Shown in pieces: positions 4,179 through 34,435 of a stretch of DNA of 34,435 bases (the first letter of the stretch is position 1; each line of letters opens with the position of its first letter). Under the pieces are notes generated by a model. That model worked only from the letters and a program-made list of their open reading frames with translations, ran no database searches and was not told the DNA's origin. Location of the stretch: positions 1-34,435 of the forward strand of contig JAKOQZ010000062.1 of assembly GCA_029778105.1 (NCBI GenBank). The letters are read 5' to 3'. The stretch comes from Pseudomonadota bacterium (GTDB lineage: Bacteria > Pseudomonadota > Alphaproteobacteria > Micropepsales > Micropepsaceae). A program made the translations under genes and the position numbers.

Positions 4179-5522
4179 CTATCCGCCGGCGCGGGCGGCG
4201 CGGCGTTCGATCAGGCGGCGGATACGCGCCTGCCGGTCGCGCCCGATGGGGAAGCGCCAGAGGAGCAGAACCGAAACGAGGAAGAACGGCCAGGGCATCC
4301 AGACATAGGTGAAGACGAGCGCGTCGATGGCTTCGGGCGAATTGCCGAAGGACATCGCGTTGAAGCCGGCGCTGGACAGGATGGTGAGCGCGATGAAGCC
4401 GCCGATGGCGTCGGCCAGCTTGCCGCCCATGTTCCAGAAGGCGAACAGGAGGCCGGCGCGCGAGCGGCGGGCGCGCAGTTCGTCGAGGTCGATCACGTCG
4501 GCCGAGATGGAGAGGCCGAGCGTCGCCGCCGCGCCGCCGCCGAGGCCCGCAAGCGCCATGATGAGCATGGCGAGATTGGCGTCGCCCTTTGGCACCAGCA
4601 GGAGGCAGGCGAAGGCGACGAGCGAGGAGACGACGGCGAAGATGAGGGCGTTGTGCTTGGAGAAGCGCGAGCCGGCCCAGACCCAGATGGGCACGCCCAG
4701 CACGGCGGCGAGGAGATAGACGATGACCGGGTTCGCCGAATTGGCACCAAGACCCAGCGCGTGAATGAAGAACCAGAGGACGACGGTGGTGTTCACCGCC
4801 GAGCCGATGCGGCCGATGGTGGTGGCGGCGAGGATGCGCATGAAGGGCGCGTTACGCATCGCGATCTTCATGCCCTCCAGCCAGCCCGTGTTGTGCACCG
4901 GCCCGGCAGGTTGGCGATCCGGCACGAACAGCCACATCAGGAGGCCGCTGACAGGGAAGAGAATGAGCGCCCAAAGGCCCAGACCCTGCATCACAGGCGT
5001 GAGGCCCTGCGGCGTACCCGCGCCGCCGCCGGTGAAGACCGGCGCAAGCGTGGCGATCATGATGCCGACAAAGGCGAAGAGGGTACGCCAGCCGGTGATG
5101 CGGGTGCGTTCAGCGTAGTTGCCGGAGATTTCCGCGCCCCAGGCGCCGTAGGGGATCTGGATCATCGTCCAGCCGAGATAGAGCAGCATCAGCCAGACGA
5201 GGAGATAGAGCGGGCCGACGCCAGGGGCGGCGAAGAACACCATGTAGATGCCGGCCATCTTGAGCGGGATGCCGAGCAAAACCCACGCCTTGCGGCGGCC
5301 GAGCTTCAGGCCGGTAGAGCGATCCGACGCGATGCCGATGAGGGGATCGATGACCACGTCCGACAGGCGGGCGACAAGGAGGACCCAGGCGAGATCCTGC
5401 AGCGAGACGCCGAGATCGGTGCCGTAGAAGGTGGTGAGATAGATGACCAGCGGCAGGTCGGCGATGGACAAAGGCAAGGCGATCTGGCCGTAGGCGGCCA
5501 GCGAGCGGCGGGTCAGGCGCAT
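4179..5522 (-). CDS. MFS transporter, GPH (glycoside-pentoside-hexuronide:cation symporter) type
   Basis: Start chosen at MRLTRRSLAAYGQIALPLSIADLPLVIYLTTFYG with GGGAGAG upstream; LSDVVIDPLIGIASDRSTGLKLGRRKAWVLLG. Confidence 0.9.
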   Translation of the reverse strand: MRLTRRSLAAYGQIALPLSIADLPLVIYLTTFYGTDLGVSLQDLAWVLLVARLSDVVIDPLIGIASDRSTGLKLGRRKAWVLLGIPLKMAGIYMVFFAAPGVGPLYLLVWLMLLYLGWTMIQIPYGAWGAEISGNYAERTRITGWRTLFAFVGIMIATLAPVFTGGGAGTPQGLTPVMQGLGLWALILFPVSGLLMWLFVPDRQPAGPVHNTGWLEGMKIAMRNAPFMRILAATTIGRIGSAVNTTVVLWFFIHALGLGANSANPVIVYLLAAVLGVPIWVWAGSRFSKHNALIFAVVSSLVAFACLLLVPKGDANLAMLIMALAGLGGGAAATLGLSISADVIDLDELRARRSRAGLLFAFWNMGGKLADAIGGFIALTILSSAGFNAMSFGNSPEAIDALVFTYVWMPWPFFLVSVLLLWRFPIGRDRQARIRRLIERRAARAGG

Positions 5523-5671
5523 GTCTCTCCCTCGTCGGGCCGTCTGGTGCGGCCTCTTGGCCACAGTCGGGGCGCAAACGCCGGGACGCAAGGGGGTCGT
5601 CACATCCGCAAGGCGGGTTTGGGCGTTAGATTGCGACGCAAGACCTTTTCGGTACGACTCCGGGAGATTTC

Positions 5672-6454
5672 ATGAAAACCGCCCTCGCCTGCCTCGCCGC
5701 CGCATCGGCGCTGGCCCTGATGCCCGCCGCCGCCGCGCCCAAGCCGAAATGGGAAGTGGGCGTCGGCGCCTTCGCGACCTACAGCCCGGCCTATTGGGGC
5801 GCGAGCCGGGACAGCGACGATTTCGGCGGGTTTCCGGTGGTCTATTTCATCTATCGCGGCGAGGACATTTCGATCTTCTCGAACGGATTGTTCGACGTCG
5901 ACTCGAACAACACGGAACGCTTCACGTTCGGCGTCTCGGTGGACGGCAGCGGCGGCGTGGACAGCGAAGACCGGCACGGCCTCGGCGACATCGACCCGGT
6001 TCTGGAAATCGGACCGAAGATCACCTTCGCGCTGTTCGCGACCGGCACGCAGCGCCTGGAGGCGAGCCTTGCGGCGCGCGTCGCCTATCAGTGGGGCGAA
6101 GGGTTCGAAGGCTGGGTGTTCGAGCCGTCGCTCGCCTATCTGGTGTCGCTGAACGATACGACGCGCCTCGGCTTTACGCTGGTCTCCAAGTTCGGCAGCG
6201 AGGACTATAACGATCTTTGGTACACGGACGGTTTCTACGTGGCCGACAGCGGCTATATCGGCTCGTCGCTGGCGATCAATCTCGTCCACGATCTCTCCGA
6301 CAAACTGCGCATGAGCGCGCAGGCTAAGATCATGACCATCGAGGGATCGGACATGGACAAGTTCGCATCTCTGGTGGAAGAGGACACGAACTATTCGTTC
6401 CGGATCGGCTTCACCTATTCGATCTGGCAGTCGAGCGAGATGGCGCGCGAGTGA
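5672..6454 (+). CDS. MipA/OmpV family outer-membrane protein
   Basis: Signal peptide; WEVGVGAFATYSPAYWGASRDSDDFGGFPVVYFIYRGEDISIFSNG; C-terminal beta-strand-like end. Confidence 0.88.
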   Translation: MKTALACLAAASALALMPAAAAPKPKWEVGVGAFATYSPAYWGASRDSDDFGGFPVVYFIYRGEDISIFSNGLFDVDSNNTERFTFGVSVDGSGGVDSEDRHGLGDIDPVLEIGPKITFALFATGTQRLEASLAARVAYQWGEGFEGWVFEPSLAYLVSLNDTTRLGFTLVSKFGSEDYNDLWYTDGFYVADSGYIGSSLAINLVHDLSDKLRMSAQAKIMTIEGSDMDKFASLVEEDTNYSFRIGFTYSIWQSSEMARE

Positions 6455-6475
6455 TCGCAGCCTCAGACCACAGCC

Positions 6476-6502
6476 AAAGGCCGGGCCCCGCGCCCGGCCT
6501 TT
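6476..6502. terminator. Bidirectional Rho-independent-like terminator
   Basis: AAGGCCGGGC-CCCGC-GCCCGGCCTT followed by TTC; lies between convergent genes ending at 6454 and 6510. Confidence 0.8.
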
Positions 6503-6509
6503 TCTTTGG

Positions 6510-7766
6510 TCAGTAGGGCATCAGGCCGATGGTCGCGCCGACGAGCAGGCTGGAGAGCGTGCCGGAGATGAGCGAGCGCTGGGCGAGCTGGACGATCTCT
6601 TTGCGGCGATTGGGCGCCAGCACGGTGACGCCCGCGATGGTGATGCCGACCGAGGAGAAATTGGCGAAGCCGCACAGCGCATAGAGCATGATGAGATCGG
6701 TGCGGTCGGACAGCGCGTCGTGCGGAAGCGCCGCCTGGTGGAGATAGGCGACGACCTCGTTGACGATGAACTTGATGCCGAGCAGCTGGCCGGCATCGAC
6801 GGCCTCGCCCCACGGAATGCCGAGACACCAGGCGATGGGCGCGAAGACCCAGCCGGCCATGCGTTCGAAGGTGAGCGGGGCGCCCCAGACATCGCCGAAG
6901 CCGCCGAGCATGTAGTTGGCGAGCGCGACAAGGGCGATCACCACCACGAGCATCGCTATGATCTGGAGGAACATCGAGAGGCCGTCGGCGGTGCCGCGCG
7001 CCACGGCGTCCATCGTGCCGTGATATTCGACGCCGAGGCCGGCATCGGCGGGCGTCGTTTCCTTGCCGGGGATCATCACCATCGCGACGACGATGGAGGC
7101 CGGCAGCGAAATGAGCGAGGCGATGATGATGTGGCCGAGCGCGCCGGGGCCGACCACGGGCGTCAGAATGATCGAATAGAAGACGAGGATGGTGCCCGCC
7201 GCATTCGCCATGCCGCAGGTGAAGACGATGAAGAGCTCTGACCGCGTGAGCCGCTCCAGATAGGGCTTGATGAGAAGCGGGCTTTCGATGGTGCCGAGAA
7301 AGACGTTGGCGCCGCACGAGACGCCGACCGCGCCGCCGATGCCGAGCGTGCGGCGCAGCAGGAACGACATGCCGGCGACGATCATCGGGAGAATGCGCCA
7401 GTGCCAGGCGAGCGCCGAAAGCGCCCCGATCACCATGAGGCTGGGCAGGATCTGGAAGGCGAAATTGCCCATCGCGTTGGGATTGGTGATCTGGAACGGC
7501 ACATCCGGCCCACCGCCGATATAGCCGAAGACGAAACCCGTGCCGGCCCTGGTGGCGAACTGGATCGCCTCGACCACCGCGTTGAGGCTGAGCAGGCCGT
7601 CGCGCATGAAGGGGATCTGCAGGAAGACGACCGCAAGCGCGATCTGGAGCGCGAGGCCGGCGAACACGACGCGCCAGGGGAAATCGCGGCGGCGCTCGGA
7701 CAGCGCCCAGGCGATGGCGAGCAGCACGCAGATGCCGAACGCGCTTTGCAGGTTCAGAAGAGTCAT
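6510..7766 (-). CDS. CNT family concentrative nucleoside transporter (NupC-like)
   Basis: FATRAGTGFVFGYIGG, GMSFLLRRTLGIGGAVGVSCGANVFLGTIESPLLIKPYL, FTCGMANAAGTILVFYS, ALCGFANFSSVGITIAG. Confidence 0.95.
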   Translation of the reverse strand: MTLLNLQSAFGICVLLAIAWALSERRRDFPWRVVFAGLALQIALAVVFLQIPFMRDGLLSLNAVVEAIQFATRAGTGFVFGYIGGGPDVPFQITNPNAMGNFAFQILPSLMVIGALSALAWHWRILPMIVAGMSFLLRRTLGIGGAVGVSCGANVFLGTIESPLLIKPYLERLTRSELFIVFTCGMANAAGTILVFYSIILTPVVGPGALGHIIIASLISLPASIVVAMVMIPGKETTPADAGLGVEYHGTMDAVARGTADGLSMFLQIIAMLVVVIALVALANYMLGGFGDVWGAPLTFERMAGWVFAPIAWCLGIPWGEAVDAGQLLGIKFIVNEVVAYLHQAALPHDALSDRTDLIMLYALCGFANFSSVGITIAGVTVLAPNRRKEIVQLAQRSLISGTLSSLLVGATIGLMPY

Positions 7767-7933
7767 GGACGAGAAAAGCCCCCGGGAATCGCGGGCAGCG
7801 TGGCATACGGCCCGCCCGGATCAAGGGCATGCCCTGACGCTTCCGTAAAGGCATCTTGCAATCGGCCCACCCCAGAGTCAGAAGGCTTGCCGTCACGAAA
7901 ACGGCGCGGACGGCGCTCGCGAGGAGAACTCAC

Positions 7934-8836
7934 ATGACCATTCGTTTCGACGGCAAGGTCGTCATCGTCACGGGCGCCGGCGGCGGCCTGGGCAAGCAGC
8001 ATGCGCTGGAATTCGCGCGCCGCGGCGCAAAGGTCGTGGTCAACGATCTGGGCGGTTCGGTGGACGGCACGGGCGGCAATTCGGCCGCTGCGGAAGCCGT
8101 GGTCGCCGAAATCAAGGCGGCGGGCGGCGAAGCGATGGCCAACGGCGCGTCGGTGACCGACGACGCGGGCGTCGCGCATCTCGTCAAGCAGACCATGGAC
8201 ACCTGGGGCCGCATCGACGTGCTGATCGCCAATGCCGGCATCCTGCGCGACAAGTCGTTCTCCAAGATGGAGCTGAAGGACTTCGACGCCGTGATGCAGG
8301 TGCACGTGATGGGCACCGTGAAGCCGGTGAAGGCGATCTGGGAGATCATGAAGACCCAGAAATACGGCCGCATCGTCGTGACGACCTCGTCGACCGGCCT
8401 CTATGGCAATTTCGGCCAGACCAATTACGGCGCGGCGAAGCTGGGCCTGGTCGGCTTCATGAACACGCTGAAGCTGGAAGGCCAGAAGGACAACATCAAG
8501 GTCAACGCGATCTCGCCGGTGGCGGCGACGCGCATGACAGAATCGCTGTTCCCGCCTGAGGCGCTGAAGGTGTTCGCGCCGGAATACGTGACCCCGGGCG
8601 TCGTGTTCCTGGCCAGCGAAGACGCGCCGACCGGCGTGATCCTGACCGCCGGCGCGGGCACGTTCTCGAAGGCCGAGATCATCGAGAGCCAGGGCGTGTA
8701 TCTGGGCAAGGATGGCGTCGATGCCGACGAAGTCGCCGCCAACTGGGGCAAGATCGCCGACATGACCGGCGCGAAGCCCTATTTCCAGGGCGGCGAACAG
8801 ACCGGCAAGTTCCTGGAGCGACTGGCCGGCAAGTAA
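7934..8836 (+). CDS. SDR family oxidoreductase (17beta-HSD4/MFE-2 dehydrogenase-like)
   Basis: VVIVTGAGGGLGKQHALEFARRGAKVVVNDLGG, NYGAAKLGLVGFMNTLKLEG; start at MTIRFDGK with AGGAGAA upstream. Confidence 0.93.
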   Translation: MTIRFDGKVVIVTGAGGGLGKQHALEFARRGAKVVVNDLGGSVDGTGGNSAAAEAVVAEIKAAGGEAMANGASVTDDAGVAHLVKQTMDTWGRIDVLIANAGILRDKSFSKMELKDFDAVMQVHVMGTVKPVKAIWEIMKTQKYGRIVVTTSSTGLYGNFGQTNYGAAKLGLVGFMNTLKLEGQKDNIKVNAISPVAATRMTESLFPPEALKVFAPEYVTPGVVFLASEDAPTGVILTAGAGTFSKAEIIESQGVYLGKDGVDADEVAANWGKIADMTGAKPYFQGGEQTGKFLERLAGK

Positions 8837-27450: not shown

Positions 27451-28455
27451 CTAGGCGGCGTCTTCCAGCTGAGGCGCACCGAGGCGCGCAAGGGCGTCTT
27501 GCAGAACCTCGACACCTGCGCCCTTTGCATGGGCGTTCTCAGCGAGATGACGGCGATAAAGCCGGGCGCCCGGCCGCCCGGCGAACAGACCAAGCATATG
27601 CCGGGTGATGGCGGCGAGCGGAACCCCGAGCGCGAGCTGGCGCTCGACATAAGGCATGTAGGCCTCGGCGGCCTGGAGCGGCGAGGCGACCGGATCGGGC
27701 GCGCCGAAGATCAGGCTGTCGACCTCAGCCAGTCGCCACGGCTGTTCGTAGGCGGCGCGTCCGAGCATGACGCCATCGGCCCATGAGAGATGTTCGGCGG
27801 CGGCCTGAAGCGACGGGAGGCCGCCATTGAGGACGATCTTGAGGTGCGGGCGCTCGGCCTTGACGCGGCGGACGAGATCGTAATCGAGCGGCGGGACGTC
27901 GCGGTTCTCTTTCGGGCTGAGGCCCTTCAGCCAGGCCTTGCGGGCGTGGACGATGAAGAGATCGGGGCCGGCCTTGGCGACGGTGTCGATGAAGGTGCGC
28001 AAGGCTTCTTCGGGGTCCTGATCGTCGATGCCGATGCGGCATTTGACGGTGACCGGGATCTTCACGGCCGCGCGCATGGCGGCGATGCAATCAGCCACCA
28101 GTTGCGGCTCGGCCATCAGGCAGGCGCCGAAGCGGCCGTTCTGCACCCGGTCGGACGGGCAGCCGCAATTCAGGTTCACCTCGTCATAGCCGCGCTCCTC
28201 GGCCATGCGGCTGCATGTGGCGAGAGCCGCCGGGTCGGAGCCGCCCAGCTGGAGGGCGACGGGGTGTTCTTCGGGCGAAAAGCCGAGCAGGCGGTCGCGC
28301 GGGCCGTGGATGAGCGCCCCGGTCGTGACCATTTCGGTATAGAGCAGCGCCTTGCGCGTGAGGACGCGGTGGAACGACCGGCAATGGCGGTCGGTCCAGT
28401 CCATCATGGGCGCAACACTGAACCTATGCGGCTGATCTATATAGCTTTTTTCCAT
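27451..28455 (-). CDS. dusA: tRNA-dihydrouridine(20/20a) synthase DusA
   Basis: FSVAPMMDWTDRHCRSFHRVLTRKALLYTEMVTTGALIHG, VNLNCGCPSDRVQNGRFGACLM, KCRIGIDDQDPEEALRTFI. Confidence 0.96.
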   Translation of the reverse strand: MEKSYIDQPHRFSVAPMMDWTDRHCRSFHRVLTRKALLYTEMVTTGALIHGPRDRLLGFSPEEHPVALQLGGSDPAALATCSRMAEERGYDEVNLNCGCPSDRVQNGRFGACLMAEPQLVADCIAAMRAAVKIPVTVKCRIGIDDQDPEEALRTFIDTVAKAGPDLFIVHARKAWLKGLSPKENRDVPPLDYDLVRRVKAERPHLKIVLNGGLPSLQAAAEHLSWADGVMLGRAAYEQPWRLAEVDSLIFGAPDPVASPLQAAEAYMPYVERQLALGVPLAAITRHMLGLFAGRPGARLYRRHLAENAHAKGAGVEVLQDALARLGAPQLEDAA

Positions 28456-28972
28456 ATCTTCAAACGTCAGCTCATCTCGTCGCCACGCTGTTTTACGACA
28501 CGACGCGGCGGAATTCGCTGGCTTTCAACGGCTCAGCGCACACGGCGCGCACTCGCTTTGGCGACGTCACGAAACTCAAATCCGGGTCGTGGCGTGTACA
28601 AATTGCCGTCAGGGGCGTTCTGTCAGCGAGACTTTTCCCCGACGCGAGGATGCCCGCCTCTGGGCCAACGACACCGAGCGCCCGGTTGATCGCGGCCAGA
28701 CCCCGCTGCCGCCACGCACCTCGAACACGAGAGCACAACCACCCGGCTCAGTCGCAGCCTGTATCAGCTGCCTGCTGCGCAGATCAACACACCTCACGCC
28801 CCGGGTGAAGCCGGCAGGCCCGTTCATCGCTGAGGCCGTCCCAGCATTCTGCGACGGACGAGGTGGCCGCCGGGTCGGCAGCGTCAGACCTTTCCGAGGG
28901 CTTCAACCCACCCCGGAAGGAAGGCCCACTGCCCAGCCGCAGGTGTTGGCAGTTGCTTCGTACCCTCGAGCG

Positions 28973-30031
28973 TCAGCGATCGTCTTCCAGGCCGGAAATG
29001 ACGGTCGCGACGCAGCTGCCGATCGTGACGAGGTTATAGCCGCCTTCCTGAACGATGACGGTCGGCAACCCCATACGACCGAGCCGGGCGCCAGCTGCGC
29101 GAAACCCGCTCAGCGTCACTTTCATTTCGTCGGTCAGGTCAGCCTCGTGCCCATCAACGCCCAGGGACAGCACAAGCGCGTCGGGCGCGTAGGCGGAGAT
29201 GCGGGCGCATGCTGTCTCGATCGCGGCAAGAAACCCGTCATCGCTCGTATGCTTGGGTAGCGGAAGGTTGAGGTTGTATCCGTGGCCCCTTCCCGCCCCC
29301 CGCTCATGGTCATAGCCGACAAAATACGGGTAGCAGTCGTCCGGGTTGCAGTGAATCGAAACGAACAGGACATCATCCCGATCGTAAAAGATGCGCTGCG
29401 TGCCGTTGCCGTGGTGAACGTCAATATCCAGGATCGCGACGCGACCGACGGCGCTGCGGAGATACTGCGCAGCGATCGCCGCATTGTTCAGATAGCAGTT
29501 GCCGCCCCCACGATCCTTGTCCGCGTGGTGCCCCGACGGGCGGCAAAGAGCATAAGCGAACCGCTCGCCTTTCAGCACGGCATCGGCGGCTGCGACGGCG
29601 AGATTGGCGGAAGCAGCGATCGCTTCCCAGCTGCGCTCGCCGATCGGCATCCAGAGATCGCTCGCATGGAAGCCAGCGCGGGCGACGATCGAGCTTGGAT
29701 AGCGACTTTCAACGCCGCGATCGGGAAATATGAGGGGATAGACGTCTCTGGCGTCAGCAAGCAGCCCGGATGCCAGGGCCGGTTCGGCAGCTTTTCGCCA
29801 AGCAGCCCATGCTGTCTTGAGATATTCCAGATACTCAGGCGTATGAATGTCTGCGATGGGGCGAAGGCCATATTGAGGCGCTTCCAGAAGTGTGTGGCCG
29901 TCCCTTTTCAGAGCCGCAAGAATGTTGTCGGCGCGTGCGGGGGGATCTGGCGTGAAGGTCAAAAACTGGCCCCAAATGTAGAACGTGTCGGGGCTATGGT
30001 TCGCGTGAGCGGCGGTGTGGAAGACTTTCAT
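28973..30031 (-). CDS. Histone deacetylase family protein, acetylpolyamine amidohydrolase-like
   Basis: LCRPSGHHADKDRGGGNCYLNNAAIAAQYL, ILDIDVHHGNGTQRIFYDRDDVLFVSIHCNPDDCYPYFVGYDHERGAGRG, LSLGVDGHEAD: Asp/His/Asp metal ligands in place. GGAAGG upstream of start. Confidence 0.93.
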   Translation of the reverse strand: MKVFHTAAHANHSPDTFYIWGQFLTFTPDPPARADNILAALKRDGHTLLEAPQYGLRPIADIHTPEYLEYLKTAWAAWRKAAEPALASGLLADARDVYPLIFPDRGVESRYPSSIVARAGFHASDLWMPIGERSWEAIAASANLAVAAADAVLKGERFAYALCRPSGHHADKDRGGGNCYLNNAAIAAQYLRSAVGRVAILDIDVHHGNGTQRIFYDRDDVLFVSIHCNPDDCYPYFVGYDHERGAGRGHGYNLNLPLPKHTSDDGFLAAIETACARISAYAPDALVLSLGVDGHEADLTDEMKVTLSGFRAAGARLGRMGLPTVIVQEGGYNLVTIGSCVATVISGLEDDR

Positions 30032-30136
30032 CGGATAAACCTTCCGGGTTCGTGACCCAGATTAACTTGACGCCGCCGCCACGGTCGCGAGGAAGCGGTC
30101 GTGTTCGATTTGCCCGTCGCCTATGCCGGCTCGCGT

Positions 30137-30561
30137 TCAGTCATGTCTCGCTTGCGGCGCGAAAGCGGTCGCAGCGATCTCGATCTGAGCACCCGGAACC
30201 GCAAGCGACGCCACTCCAACAGCTGTCCAGGCCGGGTGCGGGACGCCCAGTCTGGCTGTCTTGATGGCGATGAAGGTCGCCATCTGAGCGGGGAGATCGC
30301 CGACATGGTAGGTTGTCAGGCTTGCGACATCCGACAGAGCCGCCCCCGCTCCGACAGAACCAACTCAAGCGTGGAGAACGCATTTTCAACTTGCGCCGCG
30401 AAGTCGTCGGGCAGGCTCATATCCGGAGCGAAGCCGATAATGCCTGAGACGATGACCTGTTCGCCGACTCGGACGGCCGGCGCGAACTGAAAAGTGTCGT
30501 AAGCCACCTGAAGAGGGGCGGGAACAATTGGTGTGAACGGCTTGGGCAAAGGCTGCTCCAT
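30137..30561 (-). pseudogene. RidA/YjgF-family protein, frameshifted (1-nt loss near 30340-30352)
   Basis: N-terminal frame MEQPLPKPFTPIVPAPLQVAYDTFQFAPAVRVGEQVIVSGIIGFAPDMSLPDDFAAQVENAFSTLELVLSE ends early; adding one G after GAG gives AGAALSDVASLTTYHVGDLPAQMATFIAIKTARLGVPHPAWTAVGVASLAVPGAQIEIAATAFAPQARHD*. Confidence 0.85.
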
Positions 30562-30565
30562 AGGA

Positions 30566-31894
30566 TTAAACGATCCCCCGCCGCAAATCTGCATCGACGA
30601 CGCCATCGGTCCGCCCAAGGCGCCATTTCAATGCGTGCAGCGCGAGCCAGCGCAGAGGCTCAGGCGGCAGCGGGAAAACCCGCCGCTTCAGGAGCGCAAC
30701 GTCCTCGTTGGGCCGACCGAGCACCTGATCGGCGAGCATCGTCCCGTTCAGGGTAGCCTGAGCGACGCCGTGACCATTATAGCCCAAGCCATAGAAGACA
30801 TCTCCTCGCGCATTGCCAAAGCTGAGGGGCAGGAAGTCGAGAGTCATGCAGATCCATCCCCCCCAAAAGCTCTCGATGGCCAGATCAGGGACTTCGGGAA
30901 AACGTACCTTGAGAAGATCTGCGAATTTTTGAAACAGAGCGGGATCATTCCCGCCGATCAACGCGCCGTTGTAGCCGTATTGAACGTGCTTCGAGCCGCC
31001 GACCAGGCGGCCATCGGCGGTAATCCGGTAGGATTCCAGACTTTCATGGGCGGTATAAACACCCTCGCGACCGGTCCAGCCCAATCGATCGAGTTGCGCG
31101 TCGGTCAGCCGCGCTGTCTGGAACATCGTATCCCGCAGCGGGAACACTTTGCTTTTCAGGCGTTTGAGGGTCGAGGGCGTATAGGCATTCGTCGCGACGA
31201 TCAGCTTGTCGGCGCGCAGCATTCCCCTGGGCGTCAGCACTTTTATTGGAGAAGCGCCGTCTTCGATGCCCGTGACCGGGGTCGCTTCAAAAATCCGCAC
31301 GCCTGCCGACAGCGCCGCGCGACGTAGTCCGAGAACATACTTGCCGGGGTGAAGGTGACCGCCGCAACTCTCCAGCACGCCGACCCGAAAGACGGGCGGC
31401 AGTTTCCGCGCGCGCATTTCATCCTCGTTGAGGTAGCGGACCTCAGCGCCGATGCCCGCAGCAAGCTCAGCACTTCGCTGTAGCGGCTCGGTATGACGGG
31501 GATGAACGCCGGCGATGATATTGCCGACGGGGCGATAATCGCAGTCGATGCCATAGCGCTCGAAAATCTGCTGTGTATGACGTACGGCGCGCTCGCCAAA
31601 TCCTATATACTCAGCCGCGCGGGCGGCGCCGACTTGCTTGACCAATGTCGGCACATCTTTGCCTATGGCGGGGGTCAGATGGCCGGCGTTTCGGCCGCTT
31701 GCGCCCTTGCCGCAAAAGTCCATTTCGAGAAGGACGACATTGACGCCCTCGGCGCGCAAAGCCAGCGCCGCGTTGAGCCCCGTCAAGCCGCCGCCGACAA
31801 TGGCGACATCGCAGCGAAGCTCAGCGTCTAGAGCCGGCTGCAGATCCGCCGGCTCTTCCACCCAAACACTGACATCACGATAATCGAAAGACAT
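30566..31894 (-). CDS. DAO-family FAD-dependent amine oxidase (PuuB-like gamma-glutamylputrescine oxidase family)
   Basis: CDVAIVGGGLTGLNAALALRAEGVNVVLLEMDFCGKGASGRNAGHLTPAIG (Rossmann motif), FWGGWICMTLDFLPLSF, FYGLGYNGHGVAQATLNG. GTG 3 nt upstream is an alternative start. Confidence 0.92.
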   Translation of the reverse strand: MSFDYRDVSVWVEEPADLQPALDAELRCDVAIVGGGLTGLNAALALRAEGVNVVLLEMDFCGKGASGRNAGHLTPAIGKDVPTLVKQVGAARAAEYIGFGERAVRHTQQIFERYGIDCDYRPVGNIIAGVHPRHTEPLQRSAELAAGIGAEVRYLNEDEMRARKLPPVFRVGVLESCGGHLHPGKYVLGLRRAALSAGVRIFEATPVTGIEDGASPIKVLTPRGMLRADKLIVATNAYTPSTLKRLKSKVFPLRDTMFQTARLTDAQLDRLGWTGREGVYTAHESLESYRITADGRLVGGSKHVQYGYNGALIGGNDPALFQKFADLLKVRFPEVPDLAIESFWGGWICMTLDFLPLSFGNARGDVFYGLGYNGHGVAQATLNGTMLADQVLGRPNEDVALLKRRVFPLPPEPLRWLALHALKWRLGRTDGVVDADLRRGIV

Positions 31895-32027
31895 CACTCA
31901 CCGCGCAGCTTCGAGCTTTGGCGCAACGCTATGGCAAGCAAATCGCCGCTGCTGTATCCTTCCACGCCAGATCAAGACCACTTCGCGCCAGAGATCGCCT
32001 ATTACCGGAACGACGCTGATCCAGGGT

Positions 32028-33029
32028 TTGACTCTTGACCGCGCCCTTGAGACCGCGCGGCGTAAGGGACTCGACCCGAAACCATACTTTCGGTTGGCCG
32101 GTATTCGGCAAATCCCCAGCTCGTGGGCGAATCAGAGAATCCCCAACAGTTTGTTCGCCCATTTTCTTTACTGGGCGGCGCTGGAAACCGGAGATCCGGC
32201 GTTCGGGCTGCAGGTCGGCGCCGACTTCACATTGGGCGATCTGGGCGCGCTGGGATATTTCCTCATGCATGCGCCGTCGGTCAGCGCAGGGCTCCTCGCA
32301 TCGGAGAAATGGTTCGCCTATCAGCAGGATGGCGGCTTCTTCCGCACGCGGCGCTACGGCGCCGATCTGGAGCTTCTGTATGATGGCGGAGAACTTCCCG
32401 AAGGCCCGCGCCGGCAGGACGCGGAGTGTGGGCTCGCCATCATCGCGGGCTTATTCCGCAGGTCCAGCGGCGCTCATCCCCACGAAGTCCGCACCAGGGA
32501 TCAGCAGCACGTGGTCGGTGACGTGCTCCGGTCCCATTTCGGATGCCGCATCCTGTATGGATGTCCAGACTACAGCGTGGTCTACGATTCCGACATTCTC
32601 CACAAACCCGTCCGTGGCGCCGATCCGGCGCTTTTTCAGATTCTGGGCGACTATCTTTCGCTGAAGATCGCCGAATTGCCGCCGAAGGACGACATCGTCG
32701 CCGAAGTAAGATGGCACCTGCGGCGCGCACTTCCGACCGGGGCGGCGCGGCTGGCGATTGTCGCGAAAGAGCTGGGGCTGAGCTCCCGAACGCTCCAGCG
32801 GAGGTTGGCGGAGCGCGGAGAAGTCTTTGAAGCGCTCCTCGAACAAGTCCGGCTTCAGATCCTCTCCGAAATCTCCCAAACACGGCGCATGAGCAACAAT
32901 ATCATAAGTGTCGAACTGGGATTTTCAAATCCGAGCGCCTTCTACAGATGGCGGACGAAGCACCGCCAGACTGACAGCGAAAGCAGTAAGGCCGACAGCA
33001 GATCCGGAGAGAAGCGCCCGATCCGCTAA
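32028..33029 (+). CDS. AraC family transcriptional regulator (AraC/OruR-like with Arabinose_bd-type N-terminus), TTG start, C-terminus atypical
   Basis: LETGDPAFGLQVGADFTLGDLGALGYF, HTH AKELGLSSRTLQRRLAERGEVFEALLEQVRLQIL...NNIISVELGFSNPSAFYRW, then non-canonical tail. Confidence 0.87.
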   Translation: MTLDRALETARRKGLDPKPYFRLAGIRQIPSSWANQRIPNSLFAHFLYWAALETGDPAFGLQVGADFTLGDLGALGYFLMHAPSVSAGLLASEKWFAYQQDGGFFRTRRYGADLELLYDGGELPEGPRRQDAECGLAIIAGLFRRSSGAHPHEVRTRDQQHVVGDVLRSHFGCRILYGCPDYSVVYDSDILHKPVRGADPALFQILGDYLSLKIAELPPKDDIVAEVRWHLRRALPTGAARLAIVAKELGLSSRTLQRRLAERGEVFEALLEQVRLQILSEISQTRRMSNNIISVELGFSNPSAFYRWRTKHRQTDSESSKADSRSGEKRPIR

Positions 33030-33160
33030 CCGGGGGCGTCGCGGAGCGGACGGCGCGGTTCGGGCAGGCGGCTGGCTCGTACAAGCCGATGCGCGGCATG
33101 CCGCACATGTCCAACGGCAAGCACGTAAAGCCGTTCTCATGGGGTCTCCCCGCGCTATAA
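32990..33160 (+). pseudogene. Orphan C-terminal coding fragment of an unidentified gene
   Basis: Open frame ...DPLTGGVAERTARFGQAAGSYKPMRGMPHMSNGKHVKPFSWGLPAL* with no long N-terminal part; a stop cuts the frame just upstream of 32990, within the AraC gene. Confidence 0.4.
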
Positions 33161-33170
33161 GCGGGGAGAC
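33144..33170. terminator. Hairpin GTCTCCCCGC-GCTATAA-GCGGGGAGAC followed by TTT
   Basis: Perfect 10-bp stem; the loop contains the TAA of the orphan fragment; ends 22 nt before the pip ATG. Confidence 0.6.
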
Positions 33171-33179
33171 TTTCCATGA

Positions 33180-34435
<1,256 letters not shown>

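Follow-up and report, generated by a model that had tools for sequence, protein, structure and literature searches.

A probable dusA-associated island remnant with a putative N-acyl-amine gene set in a Micropepsaceae genome

Genomic islands and prophages were shown to integrate at a semiconserved 21-bp site in the 5′ end of dusA, where the integrase gene adjoins dusA and the incoming island replaces the dusA 5′ end; in that report (Farrugia et al. 2015, PMC4482086), the islands range from 4,758 to 184,808 bp and carry diverse metabolic cargo. Acetylpolyamine amidohydrolases (APAHs), which share a histone deacetylase (HDAC)-like fold, are a separate matter of metabolism, and true APAHs allow P. 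aeruginosa to use acetylputrescine and acetylcadaverine (PMC4784309). Here, both subjects meet in a 34,435-nt contig of an alphaproteobacterium of the Micropepsaceae (JAKOQZ010000062.1, assembly GCA_029778105.1; the whole contig is hereafter the window), in which about 4.8 kb of foreign DNA separates dusA from pip. This block (~28417-33196) is probably the shrunken remnant of a dusA-associated island, the cargo of which would comprise an AraC-family regulator and a divergent three-gene operon acting on an N-acyl amine, not necessarily a polyamine. The kind of island is already known, while the cargo is new.

Foreign DNA at the 5′ end of dusA

The block 28417-33196 is foreign. Its GC content is 61.5%, compared with 66.3% for the remainder of the window, and the GC content at third codon positions (GC3) is 0.69 in the amidohydrolase gene, 0.68 in the gene of the oxidase dependent on flavin adenine dinucleotide (FAD) and 0.72 in the regulator gene, against 0.864 ± 0.035 in 17 host genes (z of about -4 to -5 each). 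The two halves of the RidA gene, each read in its own correct frame, have GC3 values of 0.69 and 0.68, and the codon usage of the three complete island genes lies 4-5 standard deviations from that of the same 17 host genes. In the congener G002, a single contig carries pip and dusA with about 100 bp between them, where the window has 4.78 kb. The DNA alignment between the two genomes stops at 28416 and resumes at 33197, with an identity beside the gap of 89% on the pip side and 83% on the dusA side. The host has its own APAH at another locus, common to the congeners and 44% identical to the window copy, which is hence an additional copy.

An original prediction, made from the sequence alone, had placed a horizontally acquired locus at 28973-33029 on the grounds of a lower GC content. 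The compositional difference is borne out by GC, GC3 and codon usage, and the acquisition is well supported by this composition together with the empty site in G002, the integrase remnant and the known island attachment site. The positions given for the amidohydrolase, the FAD oxidase and the divergent AraC regulator were also confirmed by open reading frames and Pfam matches, but the extent was too short, since the foreign block includes the integrase remnant.

The synteny break at 28416 is the final base of the 21-bp motif CCAGTCCATCATGGGCGCAAC, which was equated with the site of PMC4482086 by its position in dusA and which is present as a single copy in the window at up to three mismatches (0 expected). 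Directly beyond dusA and divergent from it lies an integrase remnant. It is 74% identical in DNA to the start of an integrase gene from a plasmid of Mesorhizobium sp. AR10 and 57% identical in amino acids over 49 residues (E=6e-11), with a second frame at 28569-28661. The full-length protein of strain AR10 matches Pfam Phage_integrase, and on its plasmid the integrase gene comes after a dusA 5′ fragment, in the same position and orientation as in the window. The left edge at the motif, the foreign metabolic cargo and a length of 4.78 kb, within the published size range, are shared with the islands of that source; the window differs from them in that the integrase gene, which in those islands lies directly beyond dusA and divergent from it, is here a fragment and a second attachment repeat was not found, and its cargo set is not met among the cargo described in the accessible part of the report. 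We infer that the insertion was the work of an integrase specific for dusA and that the island afterwards lost most of the integrase gene and the right attachment site.

Other targets and origins were considered. A tRNA gene as the insertion target was rejected, as the window contains no tRNA, and so was a phage origin, as the FAD enzyme has no relative in the viral collection. Direct repeats flanking the block were limited to short, chance-like pairs. Near the right junction, a hairpin (TCTCCCCGC...GCGGGGAGA) has a folding energy of -33.8 kcal/mol (z of -5.6 for 33120-33185) and is unique in the genome.

As a separate observation on the AR10 plasmid, its integrase gene (L126, 2860-4151) is unannotated and, beside the dusA 5′ fragment, apparently travels with its own dusA attachment end.

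Table 1. Features of the foreign block and its flanks (window coordinates)
Feature	Position	Strand	Basis
dusA, tRNA-dihydrouridine synthase A; host gene on the left flank	27451..28455	-	Translation; 87% amino acid and 83% DNA identity to G002
21-bp dusA attachment-site-like motif CCAGTCCATCATGGGCGCAAC; left edge of foreign block	28396..28416	n/a	End of G002 synteny; PMC4482086
Decayed 5′ end of tyrosine-recombinase (integrase) gene, divergent from dusA	28530..28753	+	Mesorhizobium sp. AR10 match
HDAC-fold amidohydrolase, APAH group, 352 residues, catalytic residues intact	28973..30031	-	Pfam and alignment
RidA-family gene, broken frame (N part 30316-30561, C part 30137-30349)	30137..30561	-	Pfam halves
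FAD-dependent DAO-family oxidase, outside PuuB clade; start GTG 31897 or ATG one codon later	30566..31897	-	
AraC-family regulator, Arabinose_bd and HTH_18; start codon uncertain (TTG)	32028..33029	+	
Strong hairpin, single copy, near right junction, just 5′ of pip start	33144..33169	+	Folding energy
pip, proline iminopeptidase-like alpha/beta hydrolase on the right flank	33183..34139	+	94% amino acid identity to G002; G002 synteny back at 33197

A putative operon for an acylated amine

The AraC regulator is divergent from a minus-strand trio that runs from the FAD oxidase through RidA to the amidohydrolase. Only 4 nts separate the stop of the FAD enzyme from the RidA start, and 105 bp lie between RidA and the amidohydrolase; a scan of the locus for promoters and terminators gave signals at chance level. 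From the chemistry of the families, the HDAC-fold amidohydrolase would split an N-acyl compound, probably an N-acetyl one, to release an amine. Oxidation of this amine by the FAD enzyme would give an imine or aldehyde, of which RidA would have hydrolysed the imine. The AraC protein probably responds to the substrate or product, which would make the operon inducible. The four-gene block probably served the breakdown of some acetylated amine. The best NCBIfam matches of the regulator are QhpR and GliR (E=7e-44 and 5e-24), with which it shares the two-domain layout, but it falls far under their curated cut-offs (150 of 250 and 85 of 570 bits, respectively).

Close relatives of the FAD enzyme and of RidA lie about 2-14 kb from each other on several plasmids. 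The nearest plasmid relatives of RidA, 43-48% identical, are found near enzymes of the FAD clade in Caballeronia NK8 (two plasmids), Cupriavidus necator C39 and two Burkholderia, and a RidA relative is close to a FAD-enzyme relative in Rhodococcus koreensis too. Together with the 4-nt spacing, these neighbourhoods support a working pair, and they make the partnership plausible independently of polyamines. In the Burkholderiales plasmid clusters (e.g., pNK84 of Caballeronia sp. NK8), the FAD clade (38-43% identity) and the RidA relatives lie about 6-14 kb apart; these clusters differ from the window in carrying an AMP ligase (AMP-binding), a thiolase-like protein, acyl-CoA dehydrogenase, electron transfer flavoprotein and phytanoyl-CoA dioxygenase, a gene content of the acyl-CoA or xenobiotic type, and no APAH was seen in them.

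The recurrence of FAD and RidA relatives together without an APAH could also mean that two unrelated halves share the island, with an amine or amino acid as the substrate of the FAD/RidA pair and another substrate, or acetylated proteins, as that of the HDAC-fold enzyme. The relatives of the amidohydrolase recur instead with other partners: the closest, 59% identical (Neoroseomonas, Rhodovarius), have a class IV aminotransferase-like gene after them, as read from the translation, and plasmid relatives adjoin genes for class III/IV aminotransferases, Zn-dependent hydrolases, GNAT proteins and ABC transporters. The 105-bp gap points in the same direction. As the genes nevertheless lie on one strand, with one composition and a single divergent regulator, and as both chemistries target nitrogen compounds, such a division is unlikely, if worth keeping in view.

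Equally doubtful is the idea that the block is a dead passenger, in which all four genes are decaying and expression and selection are gone. The RidA gene, which the original prediction had rightly placed without mention of a defect, has a frameshift near 30340-30351, next to a run of five G. Its halves lie in different frames, matching positions 10-60 and 60-119 of the Pfam Ribonuc_L-PSP profile, and an intact domain of about 130 residues is not present. With the integrase reduced to a fragment, the right attachment site not found and the block missing from the dusA-pip site of the nearest congener, this frameshift may be a sign of operon decay. The other three reading frames are full-length with intact domains, however, and the catalytic motifs of the amidohydrolase are intact. 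The frameshift is either a real lesion or an error of the draft assembly, which is fragmented (291 contigs, 89% complete), such that a single indel can be an artefact.

Is the substrate a polyamine?

The most specific claim of the original prediction was an acetylpolyamine pathway. Spelled out, an APAH would deacetylate N-acetylputrescine, N-acetylcadaverine or N-acetylspermidine, a PuuB-type oxidase would act on the polyamine and RidA would remove the imine. The family assignment of the amidohydrolase is compatible with an acquired operon of this kind. The protein matches Pfam Hist_deacetyl (E=4e-72), its best solved relatives are APAHs (E=2e-82) and, in an alignment over the full length with the APAHs of M. 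ramosa (3q9b), M. subterrani (6phr) and P. aeruginosa (PA0321 and PA1409), it shares with them the HDAC-like fold (by homology), the zinc ligands, the HH pair and the catalytic tyrosine of the EGGY motif. The ability of true APAHs to support the use of acetylputrescine and acetylcadaverine in P. aeruginosa also speaks for such a pathway.

The window enzyme differs from the same APAHs at the positions associated with polyamines, and belongs to a broader QEGGY-type group. The RPP and PIS motifs were named for bacterial polyamine deacetylases, of which RPP marks the robust ones (PMC11532494), and E117 of the M. ramosa enzyme is a polyamine contact (PMC5454378). The window enzyme has RPSGHH rather than RPPGHH, as do its closest relatives (L004, L005, L009 and L010), LTD at the PIS gatekeeper motif and W127 at the position aligned with E117. 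Because the E117 and PIS positions vary among its relatives too, across the wider group, these differences make a polyamine substrate less likely but still possible.

The oxidase was confirmed as an FAD-dependent enzyme of the DAO family with a length similar to that of E. coli PuuB, a gamma-glutamylputrescine oxidase, but the PuuB label is loose. It is 31% identical to PuuB and, in a maximum-likelihood tree, it groups with a 52% identical relative from the same bacterial family and with oxidases of plasmids and degradation clusters, in a supported clade of which PuuB is not a member. No puuA, puuC or puuD was recognised among the open reading frames of 26.5-34.4 kb, hence the block lacks these partners, and it is also without a gene for gamma-glutamylation, a transporter or an aldehyde dehydrogenase. 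With RidA broken and the gene set not seen elsewhere in the scans described below, the acetylpolyamine pathway is not established, and it appears slightly less probable than either a division into halves or a dead passenger.

Elsewhere in the host genome, there are glutamine-synthetase-like matches of uncertain role, the best being 41% identical to E. coli PuuA; a gene with this identity (G000:C132:3542-4870) contains one in-frame TGA.

A narrower form of the N-acyl-amine proposal can be put forward tentatively. The block may be a mobile operon that deacylates and oxidises a substrate other than a polyamine, and it would combine a distinct APAH clade, with RPSGHH and an aromatic residue for the polyamine-binding glutamate, with an FAD/RidA pair otherwise known from degradation clusters of Burkholderiales plasmids. 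If this holds, it would help to assign the large and mostly uncharacterised proteobacterial group of "histone deacetylase family" proteins encoded near aminotransferases and transporters.

Recurrence and weight of the island interpretation

The four-gene set was not found to recur. No FAD, RidA or AraC partner was seen beside the APAH relatives at any of 80 loci (genome contigs, within the flanking sequence examined). Among the 399 genomes of a phylum sample, one relative of the FAD enzyme besides the window was found at E below 1e-62 and no relative of the regulator at E below 1e-35. The set was likewise not found around FAD-enzyme matches in the samples of relatives, class and phylum, or in the phylum sample for the regulator, with the proviso that, for class and phylum, scoring was confined to the few top candidates of each genome and rare copies could escape. 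Within these limits, the combination may be unique to the lineage of the window.

Several observations weigh against the interpretation as an island remnant with an N-acyl-amine operon. The pairing of this APAH with the FAD enzyme was seen solely in the window. The function is deduced from family chemistry, and none of the characterised enzymes in the literature consulted belongs to exactly this clade. What is left of the integrase gene beside dusA is a short, decayed 5′ fragment, and at up to three mismatches no second attachment site was found in the window (the best candidate, with 15/21 positions, lies inside the FAD gene). Hence, insertion by a dusA integrase is proposed rather than observed and, as no pair of left and right attachment sites was found, the block is termed a remnant and not an intact dusA-associated island. 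The first ~13 dusA codons (28417-28455) differ from G002, and the N-terminus of DusA is also unlike that of G001, but the DusA 5′ end partly resembles that of the congener G003 and may be long-standing host DNA, not a contribution of the island.

That there is no island at all, the dusA-pip interval having been lost in the G002 lineage or the draft (3.8% contamination) being misassembled or contaminated, is very improbable, because even though dusA and pip lie at separate loci in G001 and G003, the block is inside a 34-kb contig, its two flanks correspond in order to a single G002 contig and one edge carries an integrase remnant. An island remnant with a putative N-acyl-amine operon hence remains the preferred interpretation. 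It shows that a small metabolic operon can enter a genome at dusA and outlast its decayed mobile machinery, and it is a caution against pathway names drawn from family labels alone.

Two further arrangements were noted among APAH-like genes of other bacteria. In Variovorax, Comamonas, Pseudorhodoferax and relatives (L007, L008, L013, L014, L017, L021-L024, L027, L034 and others), APAH-like genes are paired about 3 kb apart (~4.3-9.0 kb), one encoding RPSGHH with DPIS and the other RPPGHH without PIS. On two rhizobial plasmids (L129 and L131, ~4200-8020), genes for an APAH-like protein, a member of the aspartate aminotransferase family, a 3-keto-5-aminohexanoate cleavage protein and a GNAT protein stand in a row, possibly forming an uncharacterised catabolic cluster.

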